From Pseudanabaena sp. BC1403 (lineage in GTDB: Bacteria > Cyanobacteriota > Cyanobacteriia > Pseudanabaenales > Pseudanabaenaceae), in the NCBI RefSeq assembly GCF_002914585.1, contig NZ_PDDM01000035.1, forward strand, positions 1 to 39,002: 39,002 nt of DNA, written 5' to 3'. Below the pieces are notes generated by a model. The model made no database searches and was not told the origin of the DNA. It worked only from the letters and a program-made list of their open reading frames with translations. Shown in pieces: positions 4,199-39,002 of this stretch. The position numbers and the translations under genes are program-made. Position 1 is the stretch's first letter, and every line of letters begins with the position of its first letter.

Positions 4199-4301
4199 GT
4201 ACCATTTCACCAAAGTTCCGCCACACTTTTGTGAATTGAGGATCAAACCCATCAAGGGTTTTAGAAACATCAAATGGCTCAGCCATTTGATGTTTTTGTA
4301 T
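4199..4301 (+). repeat. 103-bp three-hairpin repeat, diverged copy
   Basis: This is a decayed copy of the element seen best at 34336-34438, in the same orientation. It keeps the ACCATTTCAC start, CACACTTTTGTGAATT arm, the AAACCC...AGGGTTT central hairpin and the right hairpin CATCAAATGG/CCATTTGATG, ending in TTTGTAT. Length is the same 103 bp. It abuts the 3' end of the minus-strand gene at 4307. Confidence 0.75.
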
Positions 4302-4306
4302 TACTT

Positions 4307-4744
4307 CTATTTGCGATTGAAAACTTCTAAGGTTTGGCGACTAAACTGGCGTAGATTTACGACTCCATCTTCCATCGGCATCTTATCGCCAAAGAACTGC
4401 CAATTGTCCACCGTCGAAAATCGCCAACATTCGCCTTTATGATCATGTCCACTTGCCTCAACGCCGATCGCCCTCAAGTCGCCATCAACTGGATCTTCAT
4501 ATAGTCGAATTTGAAAGAGAATACTGCGAACCTTGAGCCGCCAGCTTACCCCTGGGAAATGAAAGCCAATATCAATCGAATCTGGATCAAGTAATCTGCG
4601 AGTATCAGAATTATTCAGCCAAGGTTTTAAGTCAGATCTTGCAGCAGGGTAAATAGCTTTAAACAAATTGACAATCGTAGCGATTTTTGTTGCCACTTCG
4701 ACATTTCTAGCTTGTTCAGCAGCATTCACGGGCAATACCCTCAC
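4307..4744 (-). CDS. Hypothetical protein (145 aa)
   Basis: I do not recognise a named family. The protein is soluble, without signal peptide or membrane segment, and has a WRLKVRSILFQIRLYEDP beta-rich centre followed by GVEASGHDHKGECWRFSTVDNW (split here by a short turn). The start is a GTG preceded by TAGG; an ATG lies out of frame. The sequence reads as a real coding region with normal codon usage for the window. It is divergent from the Uma2 gene at 4995. A diverged 103-bp repeat follows its stop. Confidence 0.65.
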   Translation of the reverse strand: MRVLPVNAAEQARNVEVATKIATIVNLFKAIYPAARSDLKPWLNNSDTRRLLDPDSIDIGFHFPGVSWRLKVRSILFQIRLYEDPVDGDLRAIGVEASGHDHKGECWRFSTVDNWQFFGDKMPMEDGVVNLRQFSRQTLEVFNRK

Positions 4745-7804: not shown

Positions 7805-7878
7805 CGATTTGTAGTTCTTTTGGTCGAAATGCTGTAAATGTAATTCTCACAGTGCTTTGAATGATTTGCAAGCAAATT

Positions 7879-7980
7879 AAACCAATTAACAAAAGTGTGA
7901 AAATACTTTTGTTAATTAAACCCCACACCCAGTAAGGGTTTGAAAGCACTAAATGGCTATGCCATTTTGTGCTTTGGTAT
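7879..7980 (+). repeat. 103-bp three-hairpin repeat, copy B
   Basis: Starts AAACCAATTAACAAAAGTG and ends GCTTTGGTAT. It has the left hairpin (ACAAAAGTG/ACTTTTGT), a weakened central hairpin around CCCAGTAAGGG and the right hairpin AAATGGC/GCCATTT. It lies between glgA and the 291-aa gene, both on the minus strand, and abuts another palindrome at 7981. Confidence 0.8.
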
Positions 7981-8017
7981 TAAAGAAATACGGCGCGATT
8001 CGCGCCGTATTTCTTTA
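7981..8017 (-). terminator. Terminator-like perfect palindrome after glgA
   Basis: A 17-bp perfect stem (TAAAGAAATACGGCGCG) with a 3-nt ATT loop, 8 bases beyond the glgA stop, followed on the minus strand by the repeat copy B. Confidence 0.8.
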
Positions 8018-24770: not shown

Positions 24771-24843
24771 GCCCCCATCGTCTAGAGGCCTAGGACACAT
24801 CCCTTTCACGGATGCGACGGGGATTCGAATTCCCCTGGGGGTA
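24771..24843 (+). tRNA. tRNA-Glu (anticodon UUC)
   Basis: A complete 73-nt cloverleaf. The acceptor stem is GCCCCCA with TGGGGGT (G1-U72 at the end), the anticodon loop is CTTTCAC within stem CATCC/GGATG, and the T arm contains GGGGATTCGAATTCCCC. CCA is not encoded. In cyanobacteria this tRNA also supplies glutamate for 5-aminolevulinate and so feeds chlorophyll and bilin synthesis. It is flanked by a promoter and a strong terminator and stands alone. Confidence 0.96.
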
Positions 24844-27504: not shown

Positions 27505-27607
27505 ATCCCAAAACACAAAGTGGCTTAGCCACTTTGTGTTTTTAAACCCCTTACAGGGTTTGCTTTTTAATTCACAGAAGTGTGACAACACTTTTGTGAA
27601 TTGGTAT
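27505..27607 (-). repeat. 103-bp three-hairpin repeat, copy D (inverted)
   Basis: Reverse orientation relative to 34336-34438. Right hairpin AAACACAAAGTGGC/GCCACTTTGTGTTT, central AAACCCCTTACAGGGTTT and left hairpin AATTCACAGAAGTGTGACAA... ending TTGGTAT. The loop of the long hairpin (TGACA) is flipped relative to its stem mismatch compared with copies E and F. Confidence 0.88.
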
Positions 27608-29398: not shown

Positions 29399-29421
29399 AT
29401 TTATATTCCATAAACCATGTA

Positions 29422-29524
29422 ATACCAAAACACAAAATGGCTACGCCATTTTGTGTTTTTAAAACCCTTACAGGGTTTGGGTTTTAATTCACAGAAGTGT
29501 TGTCACACTTTTGTGAATTGGTAT
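29422..29524 (-). repeat. 103-bp three-hairpin repeat, copy E (inverted)
   Basis: Begins ATACCAAAACACAAAATGG and ends GTGAATTGGTAT; nearly identical to the reverse complement of the copy at 34336-34438. All three hairpins are intact. It lies between the yqhD-like gene and the phosphatase gene, both on the minus strand. Confidence 0.92.
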
Positions 29525-29560
29525 AAAGGTGCTGTAAAGCAGCACCTTTACAGAAAGAAG

Positions 29561-34322: not shown

Positions 34323-34335
34323 TTTAGTCTTCCTT

Positions 34336-34438
34336 ATACCAATTCACAAAAGTGTGACAACACTTCTGTGAATTAAAAGCCAAATCCCGTAAGAGTTTTA
34401 AAAACACAAAATGGCTGCGCCACTTTGTGTTTTGGTAT
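34336..34438 (+). repeat. 103-bp three-hairpin repeat, copy F (reference copy)
   Basis: Starts ATACCAATTCAC and ends GTGTTTTGGTAT. Left hairpin 34341-34375 (AATTCACAAAAGTG-TGACAA-CACTTCTGTGAATT in two halves), central hairpin around CCCGTAAGAG, right hairpin AAACACAAAATGGC/GCCACTTTGTGTTT. Terminal ATACCAA/TTGGTAT inverted repeats are perfect. Confidence 0.92.
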
Positions 34439-34707
34439 TAAACGTAATTTAGCTTGGTTAGCCTGTTGAAATACTTCACAGCCATGTCTTTAATTTCTGA
34501 TTGAATAAAGAAATTAAAGACGGCAAGTTGGAGAAATCCTTATTTCAACTATGTATCTATAATCTTGAATCTCCTTCGATTGCCAAAAATTTGAAAAACG
34601 AAAAATTCTGGCACTTTTGCAGTCAATTTGAAGGATTTTATTTTCTTTCTAGTACTTTTTTCTGGTTTCAAAATATGCGATCGCAGTTTTTGCGATCGCA
34701 GAAATCA
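34439..34707. other. AT-rich region downstream of the transposase
   Basis: No convincing gene; the 75-codon frame at 34501-34728 is of low complexity and runs into the transposase 3' end. It has a hairpin at 34486-34521 (13-bp stem GTCTTTAATTTCT, 10-nt loop) and two HIP1 sites 14 bp apart at 34678 and 34692. The right end of the insertion element may be here but I see no boundary. Confidence 0.5.
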
Positions 34708-35937
34708 TTACTTGGTTTCCCGACATAGCTCGTAGAAAAGCATACGGGTAACTTTAAATAAAATCCTGATGATTTTCTGTTTTCCAGAAATCTTGCTTTC
34801 TTTCAAACCTTTGAGCGTCCAGCCGTCATCGTGAACTTTACTTAGTTTCTTGCCTAGCCACGATGTTTCTCGCCTCTCTGGTAGAACTGAGGTTAATGTC
34901 CATGCATAGAGGCTAGCTCTCGTGATGTCAGACCCACCAAGGGCTTTGACCTTTTTATCGCCAGATTGTTTTTCGGTATAGCCTAACCCCAGGAACAACT
35001 GAAAACTTCTAAGCGATCGATGTCTTTTCTGGGATGTGGGTATTCCCTGTTTGTTCACGCCGTCATCATATGTGACCCACGGCTTGCCGTCGAGCAGGAA
35101 GCGATCGAACGGGTAGCACTGGCATAGCAGCAGGGCTTGGTTACGAAGTCCGAAACCAAAGTTTTTGAAGACTTTTAGGTATGGTGCGAACTCATCAGAT
35201 TGCATGAGTAAGGCTAGATCGCGCTCTTTCTGATCGAGTTGTTTTTGAAGCTCACAAATCTTCTTGGCATGTTGTTTGGTGTATTCGCTGATCTCAATGC
35301 CGATCGCACGGGCAACGCTTTTAGCGTGTAGATTCTTGATATAGGCATATTCCCTAATTCCTGCAACGTATCCCCACATAGGCGCGTATCCTAATTTCTG
35401 GGATACGTGTGAGTCCTTCTGTGCAATTTCTGGAAACTCCATTGTTAACCGTTGTCGGCATTGATTAATCAATGAGTTAAGCAGTTTATCGAGTTGCTCA
35501 CATTCAAAGAACCAGTCACGAACCAGTGAGACTTTGCCTGTCTCAAAGTCCAAATATCGCTTGTTACCGTGGATGTCAACAAAGCGCTCATCAAAGTAGG
35601 TTAGAGCTAAGCAAAATGCATCTTCAGGGTCAGTTTTATTCTTAAATCCATAAGCCCCGCGTTGTGCTGCAAGGTCTCCATGACCAATCCAGTAGATCGG
35701 AATCTTGTGAAAGTCTGCGAGATGTTTCCAGAAATTGCTATACCAGATTCCTGTTGGTTCCATGACCACGGCATCAGGTTTGAGGTCAAGTAATCTCTGA
35801 ACGCCGATCGCGTCGGCTTGACATTTGATAATGTCTTTTTTGATATTCTGAAAATGCTTAAGCGGCTGTTCGGGATATTCCGACAGCAAACAGGCTGTGA
35901 CGTTGTTACGACCAACGTCTAGACCGATGATATTCAT
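34708..35937 (-). CDS. IS110-family transposase (DEDD type)
   Basis: A 409-residue recombinase. The RuvC-like N-terminal domain has the four acidic residues Asp7 (IIGLDVG), Glu60 (VVMEPTG), Asp103 and Asp106 (KTDPEDA). A long coiled helix (about 145-245) follows, then the Tnp-type C-terminal domain with GLGYTEKQSGDKK, where Ser325 may be the catalytic serine, and LGGSDITRASLYAW. IS110 elements use a bridge RNA from their non-coding end to pick donor and target DNA. The frame is intact and looks active. No terminal inverted repeats are expected for this family. Confidence 0.9.
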   Translation of the reverse strand: MNIIGLDVGRNNVTACLLSEYPEQPLKHFQNIKKDIIKCQADAIGVQRLLDLKPDAVVMEPTGIWYSNFWKHLADFHKIPIYWIGHGDLAAQRGAYGFKNKTDPEDAFCLALTYFDERFVDIHGNKRYLDFETGKVSLVRDWFFECEQLDKLLNSLINQCRQRLTMEFPEIAQKDSHVSQKLGYAPMWGYVAGIREYAYIKNLHAKSVARAIGIEISEYTKQHAKKICELQKQLDQKERDLALLMQSDEFAPYLKVFKNFGFGLRNQALLLCQCYPFDRFLLDGKPWVTYDDGVNKQGIPTSQKRHRSLRSFQLFLGLGYTEKQSGDKKVKALGGSDITRASLYAWTLTSVLPERRETSWLGKKLSKVHDDGWTLKGLKESKISGKQKIIRILFKVTRMLFYELCRETK

Positions 35938-36148
35938 AGTATGCGAGTGATTATGTGGATATAGACCTAGGAATCACCCAGAAGCGCTTCAGGCTTAATT
36001 CTTTCTGTAGGTTGATAGAGAGTCGGTTTGTGAAAATAATAAGCAGCAAGGCTTTCTTCTATCCATAAACCGTCTCTCTATACCGAGTGCTTTGGACACA
36101 CTCAGCAGGCGGCGCGGTGATTAATCGCCGCGTCCATTGCTGAGTTGT
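35938..36148 (-). ncRNA. Candidate bridge RNA region upstream of the IS110 transposase
   Basis: The non-coding stretch holds three stem-loops: 36100-36145 (outer CTCAGCA/TGCTGAG, inner GCGGCG/CGCCGC), 36015-36081 (a 15-bp stem ATAGAGAGTCGGTTT with one mismatch and a 37-nt loop) and a short one around GAAGCGCTTC (35981-35990). IS110-group elements encode a guide RNA with internal loops exactly here, before the transposase. The RNA itself is inferred. Confidence 0.45.
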
Positions 36149-36811
36149 CTAGTCCTCCCAAACTGTTGGTGTTTCAGGCATCACGAAGTCAGGAGCATGA
36201 ATCAAAACATCACTATTCATGAAGTCTTCAACGCTTAGCTCTTCATCATCAGAGTCCATCAGGTCATAGAATTCTTCTGATGTGCAAGTTACTGTCCATC
36301 CAAGCTCTAAAGTTTTGACCAGATCAGGGTATTTGATGCGATAGCGATCGCAAAATGCACCAATAAATTTCCGTCCGAACTTTTCTAGATTTTCTGGGAT
36401 ATCAAGGGAGACGATCGCAGCTTGCACCATACCCAAGAGCATATAAGCTTCAAGTACTTCAACTTCAAACAGCAATTTAGTATCGCTTTTCAAATCATTA
36501 ACCAGCGCTGTTAAAGAGTGGTCAACCTCTTCTTTCGTAGGACGACGATCGCGCATCCAGTCGGCTGTATCTTGGCTGATTGGTGGATTGTTTAGTGTGG
36601 CAACATATTCACGTACAGCCCTTACATCAATTGGTGTAAGCGGTTTCTCGGAATTGTCTGGAGCAAAAGCATTTTTCATGCGATTGAATACGCCGTCATA
36701 GACATCACTCAATTCGCTTTCGGTGAACTGGAAAGCATCAATCAGATGCAGTAATGAGCTGGAGCGATCGTTAATCAGATACGGTGCGTAATCATCGTTA
36801 GGCATGGTCAT
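36149..36811 (-). CDS. Unknown 220-aa protein, last of four overlapping genes
   Basis: I do not recognise the family. It is acidic (C terminus MDSDDEELSVEDFMNSD) and mostly helical, without membrane segments. It begins MTMPNDDYAP with GGTAG just before the ATG and overlaps the end of the 68-aa gene by 14 nt. The tight overlap with three small genes suggests one transcript and a shared role within the mobile region. No catalytic motif is evident; a structural, anti-repressor or replication-associated role cannot be separated. Confidence 0.7.
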   Translation of the reverse strand: MTMPNDDYAPYLINDRSSSLLHLIDAFQFTESELSDVYDGVFNRMKNAFAPDNSEKPLTPIDVRAVREYVATLNNPPISQDTADWMRDRRPTKEEVDHSLTALVNDLKSDTKLLFEVEVLEAYMLLGMVQAAIVSLDIPENLEKFGRKFIGAFCDRYRIKYPDLVKTLELGWTVTCTSEEFYDLMDSDDEELSVEDFMNSDVLIHAPDFVMPETPTVWED

Positions 36812-37004
36812 CTACCTTATATTTGTAAATATCAAACGAAATGTAACCCTCGTAATTCATACCTGAGTCAATGTTGTAAACATTGGCTAGATAGGTGATC
36901 AGCTCAGACAACTCCATGACAGGAATTTCTAAAGCTTGAATAACTGCGATCGCTGCTAAGACTTTGGGCGGCAAAACTCCAACAGAATCAGGGATTTTAA
37001 TCAC
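36798..37004 (-). CDS. Small unknown protein (68 aa)
   Basis: Begins MIKIPDSVGVLPPKVL and ends IYKYKVDDHA. One amphipathic or hydrophobic helix (AAIAVIQALEIPVMEL) is visible. It overlaps the 72-aa gene by 4 nt (ATGA) and the 220-aa gene by 14 nt, the best evidence that it is translated. No family recognised. Confidence 0.65.
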   Translation of the reverse strand: MIKIPDSVGVLPPKVLAAIAVIQALEIPVMELSELITYLANVYNIDSGMNYEGYISFDIYKYKVDDHA

Positions 37005-37219
37005 GATGCGTGATCTCCTTCACGGTCTTTGCGAAACTCAGTAACCCTAGAACTAGTTTGAAAAACGCGATCGCACTGGTTGAGTAAGGCACTAGCCAGC
37101 GAGATTTTTTGTGCCATAGGCAGGCGCTCGATCCAATCTTCAACATTAGCGGGCATAGGATGAGAGCGAGATGAGTAATAACGGGCAATAGGTTGCATGA
37201 TGGGTTGACCTCTTAACAT
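37001..37219 (-). CDS. Small unknown protein (72 aa)
   Basis: Contains RYYSSRSHPMPANVEDWIERL and ISLASALLNQCDRVFQ, a helical, slightly basic protein. Starts at ATG 37219 (overlapping the zinc-ribbon stop, ATGTTAA) or at the ATG seven codons later. It overlaps the next gene by 4 nt. No family recognised; the four-gene overlap supports real coding. Confidence 0.65.
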   Translation of the reverse strand: MLRGQPIMQPIARYYSSRSHPMPANVEDWIERLPMAQKISLASALLNQCDRVFQTSSRVTEFRKDREGDHAS

Positions 37220-37383
37220 TTTGGTTTCCTGAATCTTTTGGACATGGGACAGGTTGTAAAGTGTGGTCTTAGGTCAGTGTCTAAAGGTATCCACTTTCCT
37301 TTTTTAGTCCGTGCCCAAAAGATTCGGGCACGGCAACCAGCACAGAAAGAGCCTTGAGAGTTAGGCGGTATTTCGTAAGGCAT
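37213..37383 (-). CDS. Zinc-ribbon protein of 56 aa, below usual ORF size
   Basis: On the minus strand an ATG at 37383 gives MPYEIPPNSQGSFCAGCRAR, then IFWARTKKGKWIPLD and HFTTCPMSKRFRKPKC. The CxxC motif, WARTKKGK and HFTTCP are typical of small zinc-binding proteins linked to phage and mobile DNA in cyanobacteria. The same frame is open upstream to 37485 and encodes more cysteines (CRTH and FCATCF), but has no start codon there; a longer, broken or unusually started protein is possible. It overlaps the next gene by 7 nt. Confidence 0.7.
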   Translation of the reverse strand: MPYEIPPNSQGSFCAGCRARIFWARTKKGKWIPLDTDLRPHFTTCPMSKRFRKPKC

Positions 37384-37616
37384 ATAGTTTTTAGGTTTGT
37401 GAGCGAAACAAGTCGCACAAAAATCACGACTACCTAATTGATAGGGAATCTCTAGATCGTGATATATATGAGTGCGACAATTGGCTTAATACGAACGGGG
37501 GCGGCGCTTGACTATGTTCATAGTTGAGCGCCGCTTTTCGTTAGTTGGTTCAACTATAAAGCGCTTTATACAAAATAGCAAGCTCTTTATATTCAATATA
37601 AAATGGTTTATAATAA
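37384..37616. promoter_or_regulatory. Divergent control region with palindromes
   Basis: It lies between the minus-strand small-gene cassette and the plus-strand XRE gene. It contains the hairpin 37501-37534 (GCGGCGCT stem, loop GTTC, then TTTT), the perfect 16-bp palindrome TATAAAGCGCTTTATA at 37555-37570 and TTTATATT-C-AATATAAA at 37586-37602. TATAAT occurs at 37609-37614. The two AT-rich palindromes are likely operators for the adjacent XRE protein. Confidence 0.6.
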
Positions 37617-37862
37617 ATGAGTCAAAAATCAGTTTCACCAATAGCAGGACTTATGGCATTAAGGGGCATTACGCAAAAAGATATTGCTGAAGCTCTTGAA
37701 GTATCAGAGCAAACAGTAAGTAATTGGATGACTGGTAGGACTATCGCTAAATTAACTTTCGGAGATTGGAGAAAGCTTGCAAAAGTACTTGATTGTGAAT
37801 TAGAAAATTTACCTGATTCACTTTCCCCAATTGAAATTGAAAAGTCACGAAACCAAAGCTAA
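37617..37862 (+). CDS. XRE-family helix-turn-helix regulator (81 aa)
   Basis: The HTH spans about residues 18-41: ITQKDIAEALEVSEQTVSNW. It resembles phage or integrative-element repressors. A TATAAT box is 2 bp from the ATG, implying that either the promoter is further upstream or the mRNA starts very near the codon. Two palindromes just upstream suggest autoregulation and control of the divergent cassette. Confidence 0.85.
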   Translation: MSQKSVSPIAGLMALRGITQKDIAEALEVSEQTVSNWMTGRTIAKLTFGDWRKLAKVLDCELENLPDSLSPIEIEKSRNQS

Positions 37863-37886
37863 AGCGCAGTGCGATCACAAAAACTA

Positions 37887-37903
37887 GCGGCGCATCGCGC
37901 CGC
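37887..37903. repeat. Short GC palindrome before the 174-aa gene
   Basis: GCGGCGC-ATC-GCGCCGC, the same core as the palindrome at 189-243 but without long arms. Confidence 0.75.
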
Positions 37904-37914
37904 CATGAAAAAGT

Positions 37915-38439
37915 ATGGAAACCTTACAGCTAAGTGTTTTAGACTTACCGCCCCAAAATGTCCTAGAAATATTGCCACGATTTAAAATTGCTATTGGGAC
38001 CAAGGACGAAAAAGCGATCGCCCAACTTGCCGAGGTAATTGGGGAAATTCGGCTTGACCAGTTCTCAGAAGAACTGGCAGGAAATGGCAAAAGCGATCGG
38101 CAGACACAGGCAGTTTTACCCCTAGAAATAGAGATATGCGATCGGGCAGCCGCCCAAGACATCGATGTCAAATTTCTGGAAAACCCTAGCAATCTCGATA
38201 GTTTTCCAGAAATTTCTACCTCGAGGAAAACTCATGGCTATATCGAGCATTACTTTGTCATAGGCAAGAATAAAAGATGTTATTGGTACAAACGTTACGT
38301 GTATCAGGACATTTCTGGAAAACTGCGACACCACCACATACCCAAAAAACAGACCGAGGCGATCGCAGCAATGTGGGCCGGGGGAGCAAGTGCAAAGGAA
38401 ATTTGCACCGCCCTTGGCAAAAAATATCAATCAAAGTAA
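37915..38439 (+). CDS. Unknown 174-aa protein of the mobile region
   Basis: The C-terminal half has GYIEHYFVIGKNKRCYWYKRYVY and GKLRHHHIPKK followed by a helix-turn-helix-like AMWAGGASAKEICTALGK; the middle is acidic. Proteins with a YxxxYVY...GKxRxxHI pattern are found beside recombinases in cyanobacterial accessory regions, by my recollection; the role is unknown. It follows the XRE gene by 52 bp and its stop overlaps the convergent recombinase gene by 9 nt. Confidence 0.65.
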   Translation: METLQLSVLDLPPQNVLEILPRFKIAIGTKDEKAIAQLAEVIGEIRLDQFSEELAGNGKSDRQTQAVLPLEIEICDRAAAQDIDVKFLENPSNLDSFPEISTSRKTHGYIEHYFVIGKNKRCYWYKRYVYQDISGKLRHHHIPKKQTEAIAAMWAGGASAKEICTALGKKYQSK

Positions 38440-39002
38440 AGCGATCGCGGCAACTTTGCGATCATCGGACACCTCAATATATCTCTGCAAACTTTTCAAA
38501 TCAGAGTGGCCGGTAATTGCTTGCAAAGTTTTGATATCGACCCCGCGATCGTAATAAAGCACCGTGATAAATGATCGTCTGGTTGAATGTGAACTAATTC
38601 CCCGATGCCCCAGACCAGCACGAACCACCGCAGCGCGAAGCCATTTATCACATGCCGAAAAAGAGATATGCTTTGCAGCCCCAAACCCCGACGAGAATAA
38701 ATAGCCCGATGGATTTGGCTTGTAAGCGTGTAGCAACCGATCTAACTCAGGATGCACAGGACATTGACGAGTTTCTTGCTTGCCCGACGGCGAAGCCTTA
38801 CGAGTATGTTTCTGGAAAGTAATTTCGGTTCGAGGAACCGAGGCGATCGCATCCTGATAAACATCACTAACTTTCAGTTGGCAAATTGCCCCCCAACGTT
38901 CCCCCGTATATCGGGCAATATCCCAAAGTAACAAGTGATGTTTGGAAATTATCGATCGACGAATGCGATCGCAATCAGACGCGGACAAAATTTCTGCTTG
39001 AC
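38431..39002 (-). CDS. Tyrosine recombinase/integrase, C-terminal catalytic part, cut by window edge
   Basis: The frame stays open to the window end, reading QAEILSASDCDRIRR before the nominal start, so the N terminus lies outside. The catalytic set is visible: Arg in RYTGERWGAI, a Lys near FQKHTRKA, HSTRRS (His-x2-Arg), GHSDLKSL (His) and Tyr in LQRYIEV. Phage and integrative-element integrases have this form. It is convergent with the 174-aa gene. An attachment site was not found in the window. Confidence 0.88.
   Translation of the reverse strand, partial: QAEILSASDCDRIRRSIISKHHLLLWDIARYTGERWGAICQLKVSDVYQDAIASVPRTEITFQKHTRKASPSGKQETRQCPVHPELDRLLHAYKPNPSGYLFSSGFGAAKHISFSACDKWLRAAVVRAGLGHRGISSHSTRRSFITVLYYDRGVDIKTLQAITGHSDLKSLQRYIEVSDDRKVAAIALL

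Follow-up and report, generated by a model that had tools for sequence, protein, structure and literature searches.

The right-hand end of contig NZ_PDDM01000035.1 of Pseudanabaena sp. BC1403 carries part of a mobile element whose integration appears to depend on an IS110-family recombinase and a bridge RNA, an RNA with loops that match both the element's own ends and its insertion site. The stretch analysed (39,002 nt; hereafter the window) is the whole of contig C35 of this genome (G000), and position 39002 is the contig end. We propose that the part from 34643 onward is the early and integration end of a phage-like element, in which an XRE-controlled operon would lead into a bridge RNA and then into the recombinase gene; to this reading, drawn from sequence comparison, we assign a probability of about 0.88. 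The XRE regulator and the divergent region beside it would control a minus-strand transcript carrying the genes 56-72-68-220 (named by the lengths of their products in amino acids, aa), the RNA and the recombinase. The donor loop of the RNA would pair with the element's own ends and the target loop with an N5-TTC-N5(-A) site in the chromosome; the recombinase would circularise the element or insert it at the TTC. Moreover, nearly every copy examined has a different guide that matches its own site, a hint that the insertion address is something these elements are able to change.

The likely integrase is encoded by P0008 (34708-35937, minus strand), a 409-aa protein that matches NCBIfam NF051857 (IS110_2) at an E value of 4e-119, over the cut-off. 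Its matches to NF033542 (E 1.3e-15; 57 bits) and to Pfam DEDD_Tnp_IS110 (26 bits) lie under the respective cut-offs of 140 and 29. D7, E60, D103, D106 and S325 are invariant in all eight aligned recombinases; the protein has the DEDD RuvC-like domain and the Tnp domain with a catalytic serine by which the IS110 family is recognised, and DEDD plus serine are the residue types of IS621 (available text of PMC11208158). Sequence searches for the NF051857 group gave no relative of solved structure. Judged from sequence, the integrase of the window element is best read as this recombinase together with the bridge RNA. The initial annotation had the element start at 36149, but it reaches left to 34643, and the earlier start therefore excluded both the integrase and its guide RNA.

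The same module (IS110 gene, RNA, operon for the 220- and 72-aa proteins, and XRE gene) recurs in relatives, among them four elements of 8.3-8.9 kb (L025-L028) and two filamentous-phage-like proviruses (L029 and L030) in G032, a 9-contig genome. On the recombinase side the window element ends in TTCTTTCTAGTAC (34643-34655), which begins with the core TTC; this boundary is common to a second copy of the element's left part at the start of contig C10 (93% identity over window 34643-36493), and the donor guide matches it at 5/5 bases. The G032 ends, for comparison, are TTCATTCTAG. All six G032 copies start with TTC on the left and finish with GGGGATTC on the right, and the ends of L025-L028 (8,322-8,873 bp) agree to the base. 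Only TTC is common to both ends of an element, and no long direct repeat was seen there. The host DNA just outside the window element reads TTATT (34638-34642), the left half of the target site, which equals one guide half and lies within the empty site of G022 and G027.

Empty sites were sought by joining host flanks with one TTC and searching 26 genomes of the genus. A single TTC with continuing flanks was found for L025 (in G014, where only 34 right-flank bases aligned), L026 (G029), L027 (G029 and G021), L028 (G029) and L029 (G014). The left flank of the window copy and contig C33 form one uninterrupted locus with a single TTC in G022 and G027, and the flanks of the C10 copy, on C10 and C16, are joined in six relatives (G027, G026, G012, G017, G025 and G023). 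Five of the six G032 copies and the window copy show insertion of the IS110 kind, exact at a short core and with no long target duplication.

The putative bridge RNA (approximate limits ~35938-36150, minus strand) occupies the gap, 211 bases in the window, that separates the recombinase gene from the 220-aa gene. The region's fold is better than those of all 200 shuffled sequences (z -5.2), and no Rfam family is matched at gathering score; the layout is common to 12 aligned copies and is kept even with recombinases that are only ~33% identical. The 5' guide half of the target-binding loop (36057-36064, minus strand; RNA GGATA-GAA) pairs at 5/5 bases with the target TTC-TATCC, the right junction predicted and found at C33:78-91, and the 3' half (36032-36039, minus strand; RNA TTATT-TTC) equals the left flank TTATT-TTC, again at 5/5. 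In general, on the RNA strand of window-type copies, the stretch GGTTT-N2-[5]-GAA reverse-complements TTC and the five right-flank bases that follow, and [5]-TTC repeats the last five left-flank bases plus the core; the same target-loop logic is described for IS621 in the available text of PMC11208160. The donor-binding loop was scored by the best match beside a GAA or TTC within the 3' half of the RNA. Its first guide half (AGAAA-GAA, 35999-36006, minus strand) fits the element end TTC-TTTCT at 5/5, and its second (GGTGA-TTC, 35971-35978, minus strand) fits the far end GGGGA-TTC at 4/5. Across copies, the first half fits at 5/5 in 10 of 13 and at 4/5 in three, covarying with the end variants TTTCT, ATTCT, ACTCT and ACTGT, and the second fits at 4/5 in all nine copies with a known far end. 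Three attributes of a bridge RNA are found together in the sequence: a structured RNA adjoining the recombinase gene, a target loop matching both half-sites and a donor loop matching both ends.

By analogy with IS621, this RNA would guide the recombinase beside it. It is presumably made, probably from the operon transcript: it lies far from the end junction, and is for that reason more likely to come from the operon than from a junction promoter of the kind described for IS621 (PMC11208160, in the part available). A covariance model built on the target and donor loops and run on family (38) and class (388) genomes found the RNA in 5/38 and 5/388, the same five in both (G000, G015, G017, G032 and, more weakly, G005 at L126); since the inovirus-like and L184-type RNAs were all missed, these counts cover one version of the RNA only. 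In the Thermus phage phiOH16, inspected for a similar RNA, the upstream stretch barely out-folds its shuffles (z -1.2).

Thirteen copies with a readable guide and left flank were scored, nine of them with a known right flank; L185 and L186, whose guides are cut by a contig end, and L126, for which no element end was found, were left out. The left guide half matched the copy's own flank at 5/5 bases in 12 of the 13, the right guide half did so in 9/9, and an A stood at target position +6 in all nine right flanks. Against the flanks of other copies, no guide half matched perfectly (0/156 left and 0/72 right; 0/228 in total). The total match was 107/110 bases, compared with a permutation mean of 36.4 (standard deviation 6.6; maximum 72 in 200,000 permutations). 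The guides were first noticed by comparing the RNA with known flanks, and the prediction of unseen junctions is therefore a fair test. After TGGGGATTC, the window guide predicted TTC-TATCC and the C10 guide TTC-TATAT. The pattern TGGGGATTCTATMY has exactly two matches in the 5.5 Mb own genome, C33:78-91 (TATCC) and C16:78-91 (TATAT), the reversed control giving one; C33 and C16 both start with the same 86 bases of element end.

The guides stand apart from the rest of the RNA in how much they differ. Among the four G032 copies L025-L028, the guide differs at 49/60 compared bases and the remaining RNA at 46/1194; between L029 and L030, the figures are 9/10 and 7/239. Identity over the ungapped columns of whole copies is 92.6-94.5% for the four and 96.8% for the inovirus-like pair, and the right halves of L025-L028 are 99.1-99.7% identical. 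As a control, an ordinary IS110 of another subgroup in G012 has an identical non-coding region in 7/8 copies, the eighth differing at 17/260 columns. Closely related as they are, the G032 copies each carry a guide for their own site, so the guide has been replaced far faster than the rest. A random guide is expected to find 0.17 perfect N5-TTC-N5 sites per 5.6 Mb genome, or 0.04 if A at +6 is also required. Because perfect sites are so rare, either many guides are tried with strict pairing, or the site is copied into the guide, or the infecting lineages hold deep standing variation. We prefer the reading that guides vary in the mobile form and that each guide then picks its site. A stronger version, in which the elements actively diversify or rewrite the target guide and so acquire a new address at each mobilisation (self-reprogramming RNA-guided integration), is held tentatively, at somewhat under even odds.

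Several observations weigh against these interpretations. Only two junctions were predicted beforehand, the G032 guides having been located by seeing the match, and only two genera are represented among the copies. One scored copy, L036 (G015:C510, in a fragmented assembly), has the guide half ATAAA beside the flank CTGAG, a match of 2/5 and the sole mismatch among those scored; either the contig is chimeric or the guide changed in place. The site of L028 is altered in two of three relatives (G021 and G012), the two candidate empty sites of L030 are too diverged to read, and in three aligned loci of the C10 copy (G027, G026 and also G022, which has an extra insert) the core is ATC or CTC, not TTC. 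The recombinase frames of L026, L027 and L030 are broken or truncated, and structure models built from single sequences were useless for the recombinase and for P0001, the 220-aa protein (predicted local distance difference test scores of 36-37). In the control IS110, the comparison took in the whole non-coding region without singling out the guide; moreover, its eight right flanks comprise four with GGGGTTnAGCATTTGCGCC, a pair with another common sequence, and two that differ. Because these flanks differ, the single RNA of the control would tolerate or cover more than one site.

Guide differences might instead reflect independent arrivals of many old virus lineages with fixed guides, without special turnover, a serious alternative that we nevertheless place well short of an even chance. 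The G032 copies differ by 3-7% over their ungapped length and therefore need not share one recent founder, and related insertion sequence (IS) elements with different targets are known (PMC11187229, in the text available). Yet their guides are nearly saturated with differences while the remaining RNA is little changed, their right halves are almost identical, and the ordinary IS110 of the genus lacks such variation in seven of its eight copies.

A further possibility, that an inserted element has its flanking target copied into the RNA gene and its guide thereby rewritten, seems unlikely. With 3 alternatives at each of 10 positions, one-mismatch sites outnumber perfect ones 30 to 1, and a perfect site with A at +6 is, as calculated above, rarely on offer to a random guide in a 5.6 Mb genome; both points would favour such copying. 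However, the two flanks lie ~8 kb apart in the inserted element and have little sequence in common with the surroundings of the guides, and we know of no mechanism for such copying. Perfect matches are also expected from strict pairing combined with many trials. IS621, for its part, prefers perfect matches, according to the available text of PMC11208160.

The integrase might instead be the tyrosine recombinase at the contig end. In that case the IS110 gene would be an unrelated insertion sequence beside the element, which we regard as very improbable. The short tyrosine recombinase does retain its catalytic residues and sits in a conserved place. However, the IS110 gene and RNA lie at the same end in 13/13 scored copies, in versions whose recombinases are only ~33% identical between groups, and the element ends are the TTC ends that the RNA matches. 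L029 and L030 have ends of this same kind, yet carry no blastp match to the short tyrosine recombinase. Nor was the attachment repeat of tyrosine-integrase elements, typically at a transfer RNA (tRNA) gene, found: no long direct repeat marks the ends, and the window, where tRNAs were searched, has a single one at 24771-24843, 10 kb off. The tyrosine recombinase was accordingly rejected as the integrase; it consists of a catalytic domain only, and in the related element L033 it coexists with a 375-aa integrase-like open reading frame (ORF). It is found together with the C-terminal domain of the 174-aa protein in the window-type, L184 and L033/L035 versions, and our guess is that the two probably serve another step such as resolution.

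Chance or assembly error as the source of the guide-flank matches can be set aside: some genomes are fragmented and L036 is mismatched, but no off-diagonal match among 228 is perfect, none of 200,000 permutations reaches the observed score, both junctions predicted in advance were found, and the flanks are uninterrupted in relatives; misassembly would be required at every site.

The system resembles the IS621 bridge RNA and the seekRNA of ISEc11 and ISEc21: it has a DEDD recombinase with a catalytic serine, a structured RNA that lies upstream of the recombinase gene and bears two loops matching the target and the element's own ends, a short core and no long target duplication. It differs from them in that the recombinase and RNA share one end of an element of 8-10 kb, cargo filling the stretch from the RNA to the far end, in having TTC as its core, and in that 12/13 scored copies have a guide for their own, different site. 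The Neisseria Nf and Thermus (phiOH16/Zuza) proviruses also have an IS110-family gene at one end, and the Acinetobacter filamentous phage Af1 likewise has an IS110-family transposase. IS110-family genes are described as likely integrases of filamentous phages (PMC11437467, PMC11209303), and L029 and L030 have Zot and Rep as do filamentous phages with IS110-family transposases, whereas the window-type element has no detectable Zot or Rep; neither account, in the text available, names a bridge RNA or a per-copy guide. As in phage satellites and other tyrosine-integrase elements, the early operon appears to be XRE-controlled, and the relatives L033 and L035 have an integrase-like ORF and no IS110 hit; unlike them, the window element uses an IS110 end, and no helper or packaging-hijack gene was recognised.

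According to the available text of PMC11208160 and PMC11187229, guide and target covary across IS110 orthologues, and redirection is seen between relatives of ~72% identity. IS621 occupies 920 locations, with no clear consensus and the same logo at 100% stringency (PMC11187229, likewise in part), so related behaviour may exist elsewhere. In the open literature searched, which leaves out most preprints and subscription papers, nothing described a separate guide for each of several close copies, and no phage was credited with a bridge RNA. Bridge RNAs are under development as programmable tools, and the natural guides in the literature available to us are tied to an element or element group. Here, close copies in one genome have unrelated guides that each fit their own site, and this holds for phage-like elements as well as filamentous-phage-like proviruses. 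Should a mechanism change the guides, these elements would have solved the reprogramming problem themselves; even if no such mechanism exists, they provide a clean natural guide-target series (the N5-TTC-N5-A rule) for the NF051857 recombinase group. They also suggest how a cargo-carrying virus can integrate via IS110.

The initial annotation saw here a resemblance to the control and integration end of a phage-like satellite or integrative element, a reading that would have been refuted had the genes never occurred together elsewhere. The comparison supports it for an integrative element: the module genes do co-occur in other genomes, and L025-L028 keep the order IS110, 220, 72, 56, XRE, 174 and short tyrosine recombinase. 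The recurring relatives and kept gene order indicate that the small-gene block is not a product of chance, and the element as a whole would be a virus or virus satellite.

Beyond the tyrosine recombinase, L025-L028 extend for ~4 kb; in L025 this right half has ORFs of 124, 119, 152, 121, 260 and 509 aa. None of the six proteins has a Pfam or PHROG match above weak levels, and the profile of the 119-aa protein matched no solved structure. Neither the 260-aa protein nor the L025 right-half DNA was found in the readable part of the own genome, some contigs of which are masked. The 509-aa far-end protein (L025:15516-17045) is proline-rich with GCTDPxAxNYNPxAxxDDGSC-type repeats, adhesin-like by eye.

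The two proviruses L029 and L030 (10,414 and 10,281 bp) share with the window element the IS110 gene (~33% identity), the XRE gene, the 72-aa protein and, of the 220-aa protein, the N-terminal part. L029 encodes Rep_trans (E 1.1e-30) and Zot (E 2.5e-8), and the Zot and Rep of L030 are 99.7-100% identical to these; both thus combine the Zot/pI-like ATPase, rolling-circle Rep and small genome of an inovirus. For the window-type element, no Zot was found among the six L025 right-half proteins or in what could be read of the own genome, which did not include the middle of the element. The L029 relative of the 220-aa protein (L029:9504-10139) has CxxCxGxG-type repeats resembling, by eye, a DnaJ zinc finger; the N-terminal part of this protein is therefore shared and its C-terminal part exchanged.

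More distant versions were also seen. L184, in G005 of another genus, has an IS110 gene, an XRE protein (HTH_3, E 5e-10), a short recombinase and homologues of the 124-, 119- and 152-aa proteins. The G005 element splits a gene at PQ-V (L184:6338-7321), and reading resumes on the other side (14158 onward); the interrupted gene we take to be chlorophyll-binding (IsiA/Pcb-like). L033 (G021) and L035 (G015) have no IS110 hit and encode integrase-like ORFs of 375 and 369 aa, with Phage_integrase matches (E 0.0018 and 0.00023) below the Pfam cut-off. L033 together with L037 (G021) makes up a related element of ~11.7 kb, with a short 200-aa tyrosine recombinase and the 375-aa ORF, and L035 has the same gene kinds, but their order is permuted, as it would be in a tandem or circular form.

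Within the window, the ORF positions and strands and the overlaps of 7, 4 and 14 nt between the minus-strand 56-, 72-, 68- and 220-aa genes are as first annotated. The operon's first gene, P0004 (37213-37383), encodes a 56-aa Cys-pair (zinc-ribbon-like) protein matching PHROG 5984, of unknown function, at E 8.8e-11 and is 80-87% identical to the versions in five other element copies. The 72-aa protein P0003 (37001-37219) is a conserved module member, with 15 invariant columns in 10 aligned sequences. It has matches at E<1e-10 in the same 5/38 family genomes as the 220-aa protein, and in 7/38 at E<=0.01; the two extra matches (E 0.008-0.009) carry internal stops, and matches at E 0.008-0.0097 in G018, G022 and G015 were left out. 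The 68-aa ORF P0002 (36798-37004) has a GTG start and is not conserved: a blastp comparison with the ORFs of 17 sources (the window and 16 loci) gave no relative at E<=1e-3, and in L025-L028 the 72-aa gene directly overlaps the 220-aa gene. The 220-aa protein P0001 (36149-36811), the operon's last gene before the RNA, has relatives in 5/38 family genomes, all of one genus.

A divergent control region (37384-37616) with promoter-like sites on both strands separates the operon from the plus-strand XRE/Cro-type regulator P0005 (37617-37862; Pfam HTH_3, E 2.3e-10), which would act on it; the nine promoter-like sites in 34600-39002 are within the shuffle range (mean 6.9, standard deviation 2.5). 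P0006 (37915-38439, plus strand) encodes the 174-aa protein, whose C-terminal domain is conserved in the alignment; a weak SH3-like Pfam match appears in 2/7 aligned family members and not in P0006 itself. The short tyrosine recombinase P0007 (38431-39002, minus strand; ORF 38431-39000; Phage_integrase, E 5.7e-16) is a catalytic domain cut by the contig end and therefore lacks ~8 N-terminal residues of its relatives; its family profile matches the XerA structure 5hxy at E 3.3e-13.

The earlier impression that the 220-, 72-, 68- and 174-aa proteins belong to no nameable family was borne out: no match exceeded a Pfam or NCBIfam cut-off, and PHROGs and PADLOC gave none; PADLOC matched none of six of the eight window-element proteins, and profiles of the 220- and 174-aa proteins matched no solved structure. 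In the viral contigs scanned, no relatives were found of the 72-aa protein (single sequence and profile), Zot, the IS110 recombinase, the short recombinase or the 119-aa protein; the 56-aa protein had no phage match, versus three distant ones (24-27% identity) for the L029 Rep. A scan of genome contigs with the 174-aa protein gave two weak Trichodesmium matches.

Finally, a dispersed repeat of ~100 bp, resembling by eye a repetitive extragenic palindrome or miniature inverted-repeat transposable element (REP/MITE-like), lies at 34334-34440, 4207-4307, 7877-7982, 27508-27607 and 29419-29527 of the window and has many copies in the genus. The extra stretch at the G022 locus of the C10 element (L155) resembles this repeat.

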